This document shows positions 13,597 to 28,858 of a stretch of 64,000 nucleotides of DNA, piece by piece (position 1 is the stretch's first letter; each line of letters starts with the position of its first letter). The DNA lies in NCBI GenBank assembly GCA_014526335.1, contig JACTAT010000039.1, positions 5,739,218-5,803,217 on the forward strand. Reading direction: 5' to 3'. Origin of the DNA: Chrysaora quinquecirrha (taxonomy: Eukaryota > Cnidaria > Scyphozoa > Semaeostomeae > Pelagiidae). The position numbers and the translations under genes are program-made. The notes beneath the pieces were generated by a model, which did not search any database, was not told the DNA's origin, and was given only the letters and a program-made list of their open reading frames with translations.

Positions 13597-14508
13597 CAAC
13601 TAGCCAGTTATCCACCACAACAAGCATAATAACCCATCACATCAAGCATGATAACCCACCAGCGCACGGTGGTGCTTATCCACCACAGCACACACAAAAA
13701 TACCACCGCAGTACGCAAAAAAATATCACCACAGAAATGTGTATCCACCACAGCTGTGCATTCGAGGTGCATTCGCTAACGTGGAGAAAATCGCAACGAG
13801 GAACAGGGAATTGATCATGGTCTGTCAATGCAAGGAACTTGAACTTCCTGCTACACATAATGACAATGACCAATCGCATCTTCTGGACCCTTCTACTGCG
13901 ATCGAAATACCCGCCTTAGTTACCACCACAGAGATACGACCTTAAAAACCGAGAAAGAACCTTCATAGATGCAGAAAACATGCAATACCCAGCTAAAGAG
14001 ATCACCATTTTTCTGCCCCCTCCCCTATGTGTGCTCTTGTCCTGCGCCTTTATCGTATCAGGTAATAAGGGCAGGGCACAGAGCTCTTATAACTAGTCAT
14101 TTTTAAGCACTGATTTAAAAACTCAAGAGAAATTAAAAAAACGCATAAATTATGTTTAACTCGAGGCTTTTTGCGCGTTTTTTTGCTTACAAAACGTCAG
14201 AAAAAGACAAGATAGTTTACAATTCAAAAAGGGAGCATATGAATCGAATATAAATAAGAAAATAAATAAATAAAAACGATTATGGAAAAGGTAAATATTG
14301 CAGCAAAAGCTCAACATGATTAATAGTCCTTAATGCACAGTTCTCTTCGTTTCATTAATATTATTTCAAGTTTTCAGTGTGTTACAATACTTCACTATCC
14401 AGTCAAACACAAGTGAAGTGCCCCCTGGCCCCTGATGGGACTGAATTTAAAATCTGACCATCATATCCCAGGCTCTTCTCCGACGTCTACCCCAGCTCCA
14501 GCCAGGAT
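13597..14508. repeat. Duplicated module, copy 1: terminal exon and 3' region of peptide gene A
   Basis: About 910 bp here match 18,077-18,928 in the same orientation. Matching words include 'actagccagttatcc', 'cttctggacccttctactgc', 'gaaagaaccttcatagatgc' and 'ccagtcaaacacaagtgaag'. The module ends at the splice acceptor of gene A's last exon. It includes a truncated TIR/minisatellite element with 'accaccgcagtacgcaaaaa' and 'gcattcgctaacgtgg'. Both copies keep a short plus-strand frame (SHLLDPSTAIEIP) with no family I know. Confidence 0.85.
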
Positions 14509-27492: not shown

Positions 27493-28858
27493 ATGAAGAC
27501 ACTTTTGTATTTGGTACTTGTCCTTGGATTGGCTTTCGCCATTTGTAGTAAGTTGAATTCATCTGCTTATTAAACGATTTATCCGAGATAGATCAGTAAG
27601 GTTAAGGCCGGTTAATGCATCAGCGTCTTCTTTTAAACCACTTACTGCTTTAATTAGCTACATCCTTGAAACTCTATAAAAACTATTCTGTGCTATAACT
27701 AACTAACTAACTAACTAACTAACTAACTAACTAACTAACTAACTAACTAACTAACTAACTAACTAACTAACTAACTAACTAACTAACTAACTAACTAACT
27801 AACTAACTAACTAACTAACTAACTAACTAACTAACTAACTAACTAACTAACTAACTAACTAACTAACTAACTAACTAACTAACTAACTAACTAACTAACT
27901 AACTAACTAACTAACTTGCTTACTAACTAACTAACTAACAAAACAACTAACTAACTAGCTAAATAACTAACGAACAAACTGACTAACCAACTAAATGATT
28001 ATTTATCTATCTAGCTATCTAACTGCCTAACTGACTGACTACCCAGCTAACCAATTAACTAACTAACTAACTAAGCAACCAACTAGCTAACTAACTAGCA
28101 AACTACCTAACTAATTAGCTAACTAACTAACTAACTAACTTGCTAACTAACTAACCGCGTAACTAACTACCCGACTAACTAAACAACTAACTAACTAACT
28201 AACTAACTTTCTCTTGATAATTAGCTATCTAATAAAATAACTAACTAACGAACTAACCGCTAACTAATTATTGTTACTAACAACCTTGCAGGTAACTAGT
28301 TTGCTGGTTCGCTAGTTGACCAACTCAGTTTACTAAATAATTTTCTAACTTCTTTATATGTCTTGTCTTTTAGGTTTGTCGGAGGCACAACGTGGCGAGG
28401 AGAGGAATGCTGAAGAAGAGGATATGCCAGACCTAGAAGACCTCGACATAGGAGAAGACGAAGAGCGTAGCGAGCAGCGTGGTAGGTTTTAAATTTCAGC
28501 TTTTTAAACAATTTTATAAGTCTATTCTATTTGCAATGGCGTGCTGCATTTCACACCATTTGAATTTGTTGGTTGCTGAATGCGTATTTAATCCCCCCAG
28601 CTTGTGATGGAATGTCAGGAAGTTGGGCGTTAGTGCATCAGCCATAACGAGTAGCCTCCAAGGGGCACAACGAGCACAAGGCTATACAACCCCCTGGCCT
28701 ACTATAGGGATAAACTGCCCTTATAGTCAGTTCCTGGAACAGGGAAAGAATTTCCAGTCCCTGTGCTCAAACGGTTACACCCGGCACTCTAGTCTCTGCA
28801 AACCCATGAACTGCCTGACTAAGACAGGGATTTTAAGGTCGGTGGCTAACAATGGCTA
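27493..28858 (+). CDS. Secreted peptide precursor B (signal, acidic propiece, Cys-bearing C-terminus)
   Basis: Exon 1 (27493-27547, 55 nt as in gene A) encodes a signal peptide, MKTLLYLVLVLGLAFAIC. Exon 2 (28374-28481) encodes an acidic propiece with EEEDMPDLEDLDI, ending RSEQR. Both introns are phase 1, and the second donor 'GGTAGGTT' equals gene A's. Exon 3 starts at 28601 after 'ccccccag' with A-C-D-G and reaches an in-frame TAA after 15 codons. A frame with four further cysteines continues to about 28,858. It joins the gene either through a possible 98-bp intron (GT at 28629, AG at 28726) or across a frameshift. The layout (acidic propiece ending in Arg, mature part beginning Ala-Cys) recalls the coral antimicrobial peptide damicornin, but cysteine spacing does not clearly match. 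Product unassigned. Confidence 0.65.
27695..28225 (+). repeat. (AACT)n microsatellite, about 500 bp, in intron of peptide gene B
   Basis: About 55 perfect units from 27,699 to 27,915, then about 290 bp of degenerate units with single-base changes. It occupies most of the intron between the signal and propiece exons. Confidence 0.97.

Follow-up and report, generated by a model that had tools for sequence, protein, structure and literature searches.

Two genes of the window, A and B, were annotated as small secreted precursors with like front parts and unlike ends, which raises the question of whether their last exons have been exchanged or belong to a single family that has diverged. The window is the whole stretch of 64,000 nucleotides analyzed here, C313:5739218-5803217 of the 328-Mb assembly G000. 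The initial annotation had described a conserved pre-pro part joined to unrelated last exons, a layout likened to host-defense and venom-type peptide families. To our knowledge, no named family fits the A and B precursors.

Gene A spans positions 14447-17259 on the minus strand and, as assembled, reads as intact. Gene B spans 27493-28481 on the plus strand. Their parts are as follows.

17260..17286, minus strand: presumed 5' untranslated stretch of gene A, 27 nt from an acceptor-like CAG (leader intron) to the ATG, with the same spacing as in B
17205..17259, minus strand: signal exon of gene A, 55 nt, MKTVFYFLLVLGLAVAIC, phase 1
15483..15578, minus strand: acidic pro exon of gene A, 96 nt (87 nt with the CAG acceptor at 15569), NFSDARYEAESDVKEDDGPDTEDLDVREYEKH, net charge -9
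14447..14508, minus strand: last exon of gene A, DPGWSWGRRRRRAWDMMVRF and a stop codon, net charge +4
27466..27492, plus strand: presumed 5' untranslated stretch of gene B, 27 nt from an acceptor-like CAG (leader intron) to the ATG
27493..27547, plus strand: signal exon of gene B, 55 nt, MKTLLYLVLVLGLAFAIC, phase 1, identical in the copy B' described below
28374..28481, plus strand: acidic pro exon of gene B, 108 nt, SLSEAQRGEERNAEEEDMPDLEDLDIGEDEERSEQR, net charge -12, identical in B'

Most of the features that the initial annotation had matched between the two genes were recovered. Both signal exons are 55 nt long and end in phase 1, with 13 of 18 residues identical (tblastn E = 1.2e-5 within the window), and both acidic exons hold D-x-P-D-x-E-D-L-D. 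The phase-1 introns of A and B were confirmed in the gene models, and a possible mark of a leader intron, an acceptor-like CAG, stands 27 nt before the ATG in each. The identical exon 2 donor is likewise present, reading GGTAGGTT in both genes, but it is not a family feature, since six other members differ (GTTGGC, GTATGA, GTAGGC, GTTTGA, GTTCGT, and GTATAT). Homologues of the gene A acidic exon were matched elsewhere in the assembly by protein search. Exon 2 of A probably starts at 15578, 9 nt upstream of the previously assigned 15569, because the TTGTAAG acceptor at this point lines up with the acceptor of the homologous exons on contigs C25 and C14. The upstream acceptor adds three residues to the pro part of A (NFSDARY versus NARY), and with it A, B, and the C25 gene have in common a stretch of the form [S/N]-x-S-[D/E]-A, which we infer to be their signal-peptidase site. 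Intron 1 of gene B is filled with about 128 copies of TAAC (window 27696-28208), and a short run of the motif lies on the opposite strand in the first intron of gene A (16926-16971).

A Cys-bearing last exon had been proposed for B. We compared this region with B', a second copy of the gene that begins at C313:5673628, about 93 kb to the left of B. Exons 1 and 2 are identical at 163 of 163 positions, and the near flanks, once gaps and the TAAC repeat are excluded, differ at 17 of 1,059 aligned positions; B/B' blocks longer than 1.4 kb are more divergent than these flanks, at 92.0 to 97.5% identity. The 47-nt stretch proposed as the last exon of B is also identical in B', where it lies within an intron; the TTACAG acceptor closing that intron stands before DPGWRWGRRRRRGSWAFRV. 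The alignment of the two copies breaks at window position 29073 and picks up again at 33132, giving two further features.

28601..28647, plus strand: decoy "last exon" of B, ACDGMSGSWALVHQP and a stop codon, inside an intron of the intact copy B' and probably not an exon
29074..33131, no strand assigned: segment replacing the last-exon DNA of B', 4,058 nt, partly tandem repeats, versus 946 nt in B' that hold DPGWRWGRRRRRGSWAFRV and a stop codon (G000:C313:5675700)

The Cys-bearing exon was rejected because the same stretch is intronic in B'. The Trp- and Arg5-rich end described for A stands, whereas the unrelated end described for B is a decoy: B' closes with a last exon that is A-like (65% identical to that of A). 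After B, no family-type last exon was found in the window or in the next 50 kb rightward, which contain no N. Judged from sequence, the B of the window appears to be a copy that has lost its peptide exon, and its case illustrates that exon exchange can be mimicked when a last exon has been lost next to a segment with repeats. Either a recent duplication or the placement of two alleles in a single scaffold could account for B and B'. The surroundings are also repeated: window 22.4 to 43 kb and G000:C313:5666.6-5685.7 kb are largely collinear over about 20 kb, with blocks about 86 to 99% identical in the one scaffold, and represent either alleles joined in it or a recent duplication.

The initial annotation had also placed a third last exon at 18.9 kb. 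This feature is as follows.

18863..18928, minus strand: unspliceable copy of the gene A last exon, PGWGWSGRRRRKTSWATAVRG and a stop codon, followed by A-like 3' flank of about 430 nt that reaches to about 18430

A second copy of the A last exon thus exists, but it is not of a third kind and cannot be spliced in frame. The AGs nearest upstream of its CCT codon lie 7, 58, 75, and 122 nt away. The first is in the wrong phase, and an in-frame TGA immediately precedes the TAT before the CCT, so that the frame is shut for the other three. The copy is also situated upstream of exon 1 of A on the strand of A. Lacking an in-phase acceptor, with a TGA in frame and in this position, it was rejected as a working alternative last exon and is best read as a dead remnant of an A-type last exon. 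A 160-nt satellite starts near the remnant; the same 159/160-nt satellite forms two arrays in opposite orientation (window 18988-19859 and 21031-21602) that flank 1.2 kb between A and B.

Beyond the window, protein searches of the assembly returned 20 places with a family-type signal exon at E ≤ 10. Eleven of these were read; some of the other nine, one of which has an internal stop, may be chance matches. In all 11 places that were read, an 18-residue, MKT-led hydrophobic exon (a predicted signal peptide) is present, and a GTAAGT or GTACGT donor directly follows its 55 nt. The signal and acidic exons occur together in eight distinct genes: A, B (with B'), C25:279-280 kb, C135a, C135b, C202:914-917 kb, C266:802 kb, and C324:4210 kb. 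A last exon was found for six of the eight, namely, A, B', C25 (DPIPGRRRRRRSSWDSRRRGGGSWAVRA), C135a (DPNGWNKQRWGWRQANQGRRRWAPPPPTYRRRRWTVGGNGK), C135b (DNQWSPPPVYDRRRVRHPVPISRRRRHPVSRWVWITRRRIWGMGDQGN), and C202 (DPYISWRHVVSGRRRRW), the last of these chosen by eye among about 40 candidates of a looser scan. Reading frames close in all six gene models, each with an exon 1 of 55 nt and introns of phases 1 and 1. An acceptor-like CAG stands before the ATG at 27 nt in A and B, 28 nt in C25, and 24 nt in C202; none is evident in the sequence of C135a or C135b. That A and B are members of a dispersed gene family in this assembly is well supported. Six complete gene models bear out the multigene family of secreted precursors previously proposed, in which the signal exon is shared and the cationic last exon diverges fast.

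Individual loci vary. The C25 gene has a near-identical copy on C14 (94 of 99 positions in exon 2 and 86 of 86 in exon 3). No signal exon was seen in this copy, where different DNA lies beyond the leader acceptor. At C25 and C14, a further candidate for an acidic exon (EDEREQ...) was rejected, as it runs into its own stop codon. The two C135 genes are arranged in tandem at G000:C135:1725461-1729425, with starts 2.1 kb apart, and encode longer, Pro-bearing peptides (41 and 48 residues) of a distinct subfamily. Weak signal-exon matches (E = 1.3 to 2.1) form inverted pairs at G000:C224:963612/966448 and C269:115475/119589, 2.8 and 4.1 kb apart; these are possibly two haplotype copies of another gene pair.

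The last exons were compared across the six genes in which one was found. Each of the six starts with Asp, followed by Pro in five of them, and contains two to five Trp and four or more Arg in a row; Lys is absent from five, and none of the six has a Cys. The acidic exon, 32 to 44 residues long, lies between the signal exon and the last exon, and its charge is opposed to that of the last exon in every gene (net -7 to -20 for the acidic exon and +4 to +10 for the last exon). The acidic exons of C266 and C324 have net charges of -10 and -12. Among the six genes, mean pairwise amino acid identity is 0.72 for exon 1 and 0.32 for each of exons 2 and 3. Conservation is therefore limited to the signal part; in the acidic part, charge has been retained while the sequence has changed. 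Of the conserved pre-pro part in the initial annotation, the signal exon remains, whereas the acidic exon proves as divergent as exon 3.

We also scanned the joined DNA of the family loci (568,126 strand-bases) for phase-1 terminal frames of 12 to 55 residues. The scan yielded 15,129 frames, 23 of which contain RRRR; 12 of these 23 also contain Trp, and 7 of the 12 begin with Asp. Each of the seven is a family last exon, from A, B', C14, C25, C135a, C135b, and C202. The rule of Asp, Trp, and RRRR was framed after the members had been seen, and the result measures specificity rather than prediction.

These comparisons bear directly on the model in which a constant pre-pro part is joined to exchanged, unrelated last exons, as in venom-like exon swapping. 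The signal exon is indeed far better conserved than the remainder, and C266 and C324 stand outside the last-exon set, with no family-type last exon seen in the approximately 1.6 kb after the C266 acidic exon. However, the last exons of the six genes are all of one type, the pro exon is as divergent as the last exon, and the supposedly unrelated exon of B is intronic in B'. We regard exchange as quite improbable. Since the six last exons are of the same type and the B exon is a decoy, the last exons diverge fast rather than being exchanged, at least in the six genes for which one was found.

What the last exons encode was considered from their composition, precursor layout, and likeness to known systems. 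Host defense appears to be the likeliest function, and on balance, with modest confidence, we read the A/B family as precursors of linear, Arg/Trp-rich cationic host-defense peptides. The six gene models, the outcome of the locus scan, the charge split, the Cys-free Arg/Trp last exons, and the contrast between a conserved exon 1 and divergent exons 2 and 3 argue for this reading, as do the resemblance of the precursor layout to antimicrobial peptide precursors as printed in parts of the literature on Hydra and mussel myticalins and the sub-threshold Pfam scores on antimicrobial precursor families in four of the six members. Counted against it are the absence of a classical dibasic site from five of the six exon 2/3 junctions (KK occurs in C135b alone); the Gly before the Arg run, which could instead mark convertase cleavage and amidation; Pfam scores that are well below cut-offs and matched by unrelated families; and the lack of any homologue found outside the assembly by searches poor at intron-split genes.

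In the proposed mechanism, signal peptidase would cleave A, B, and C25 behind the [S/N]-x-S-[D/E]-A stretch and the other members at a nearby point. The acidic part would neutralize and shield the Arg-rich part during secretion, and a protease cut near the exon 2/3 junction would free a peptide of 17 to 48 residues. By analogy with the Hydra and mussel precursors, the freed peptide may bind and disrupt anionic microbial surfaces, and duplicated genes whose pro and peptide exons diverge quickly would supply a varied repertoire.

The Gly has to be weighed in its own right. It stands immediately ahead of an Arg run in five of the six genes (A, B', C25, C202, and C135a, where the run is one of three) and in the dead copy at 18.9 kb, as expected if the family encoded single-copy neuropeptide-like precursors in which the Gly-Arg run is an amidation and convertase site and the signal is a short Trp peptide before it (e.g., DPGWSW or DPGWRW), trimmed at Asp. 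Multigene, single-copy precursors are described for the RWamides of hexacorals in portions of PMC7523074, and B', alone among the six, has WRW before the Gly and Arg. C135b, however, is without the Gly. The would-be hormones, 4 to 17 residues long, are wholly unlike in most paralogues, those of A, B', and the dead copy alone being alike, and likeness extends past the Arg run in A, B', C25, and the dead copy, where a Trp following Ser or Ala is succeeded by an Arg near the end. As PMC7523074 describes them in part, RWamide peptides lie directly after the signal peptide and not at the C terminus, whereas our family has an acidic exon between the two and putative peptides that are not conserved; neither PGW nor GRRR occurs in the main text of that article. 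A neuropeptide role is therefore unlikely in our judgment, and we retain host defense as the preferred reading.

Two other roles were weighed. A cysteine framework is typical of many sea anemone toxins. The family peptides have no such framework, and a function as venom or nematocyst peptides rather than immune effectors, to which the family bears a general likeness of layout (secreted, fast diverging, and multicopy), seems very unlikely, although nothing more specific speaks for or against it. The use of Arg almost to the exclusion of Lys and the opposite charges of the precursor parts would also suit some other function of secreted Arg-rich peptides, for example, in controlling intracellular symbionts (algal or bacterial) or in binding an acidic matrix or nucleic acid; nothing specific points to such a role, which we consider rather unlikely.

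Among known systems, the antimicrobial peptides of Hydra offer a close parallel in cnidarians. They combine bipartite charge with fast-evolving paralogues (PMC10945409, in part), and the arminins among them, described in sections of PMC10945409 and PMC11767717 as alpha-helical and strictly confined to Hydra, share with our family a secreted precursor, a C-terminal active part, bipartite charge, and clustered, fast-evolving paralogues. The family differs in being Arg/Trp rich, with last exons that start with Asp and contain four or more Arg in a row; it is set beside the arminins by description. The myticalins and modiocalins of mussels resemble it in parts of their gene structure: in extracts from PMC5577615 and PMC12294457, they combine a phase-1 coding intron with a conserved signal, an anionic part, and a hypervariable, Arg-rich, Cys-free cationic peptide, and pseudogenes are frequent. 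Their leader intron, placed just upstream of the ATG, has a possible counterpart in the acceptor-like CAG of four family members. According to the same extracts, the mature peptide lies in the signal-peptide exon and the anionic extension is C-terminal with a dibasic site. In contrast, the family has three coding exons, with the acidic part before the peptide in all six models, the peptide last, and a junction that lacks a dibasic pair in five of the six. The antimicrobial peptides reported for corals are six-cysteine peptides, such as damicornin and AmAMP1, and, in a soft coral, a beta-hairpin peptide (PMC11767717, in part); these too are secreted, but the family last exons have no Cys in any of the six.

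Profile searches placed the family near no known one. Nothing in Pfam scored above a shown cut-off with A, the B model of the initial annotation, or the precursors, and unrelated families scored alike. Frog skin active peptides and tunicate clavanins have a signal and propeptide before a cationic peptide, a layout like that of the family. Their Pfam models matched below threshold: Clavanin (PF05452) in three of six members at 13.6 to 14.2 bits (cut-off, 21; E = 0.054 to 0.079) and FSAP_sig_propep (PF03032) in one of six at 14.2 bits (cut-off, 27; E = 0.044). This likeness is probably convergent. Twelve sequences came up at E ≤ 10 in a PDB profile search; the top one, a flagellar coiling protein (E = 0.0019), was taken as a chance match to the acidic stretch and the signal peptide. 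Neither the Rfam scan nor the tRNA scan of the window gave a match. A search for the GFP family as a marker of corals had 0 matches, and its control likewise gave a signal in 0 of 14 genomes, a result neutral as to coral identity.

A protein search with B' gave no candidate outside the assembly, and none of the 3,801 candidates from the six-member alignment reached E ≤ 1. In a control search, an open reading frame of G000 for a transposase recovered 31 relatives at E ≤ 1e-10, one of them 98% identical over 60% of the query, which suggests that the DNA of a near relative is represented in the searched protein database. Because genes split over three small exons are hardly predicted there, the negative results say little about other corals. 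The peptide strings of the family had no match in open-licence PubMed Central text, no title among the matches listed in literature keyword searches named an Arg/Trp-rich coral peptide family, and the machine-predicted cnidarian peptides in the sections of PMC11820242 include no string resembling the family peptides.

The family is plausibly a new set of host-defense peptides that belongs to a general kind already known. Were the organism a reef coral, the family would add a Cys-free, Arg/Trp-rich family to the six-cysteine antimicrobial peptides of stony corals and provide direct candidates for how a coral chooses its microbes. Intron-split genes of about 70 to 110 codons are readily missed by annotation and similarity search, and hence so are families of this type. 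A bolder and more doubtful possibility is a previously undescribed, lineage-restricted superfamily of eight or more (perhaps about 20) dispersed genes, in which an invariant secretion exon of 55 nt and a shielding acidic exon would precede fast-diverging, almost Lys-free Arg/Trp payloads, and perhaps other payloads in members beyond the six, forming a repertoire that selects the microbial partners of an anthozoan as an independent counterpart of the Hydra arminins.

Near the C14 and C25 family gene lie four similar frames of 207 to 294 amino acids (G000:C14 835-851 kb and C25 287-309 kb; L024, L025, L029, and L031). Three of the four have a signal-like start (MVDSTYTG... or MAYSIFACV...), and the frames represent a multicopy, probably secreted protein family.
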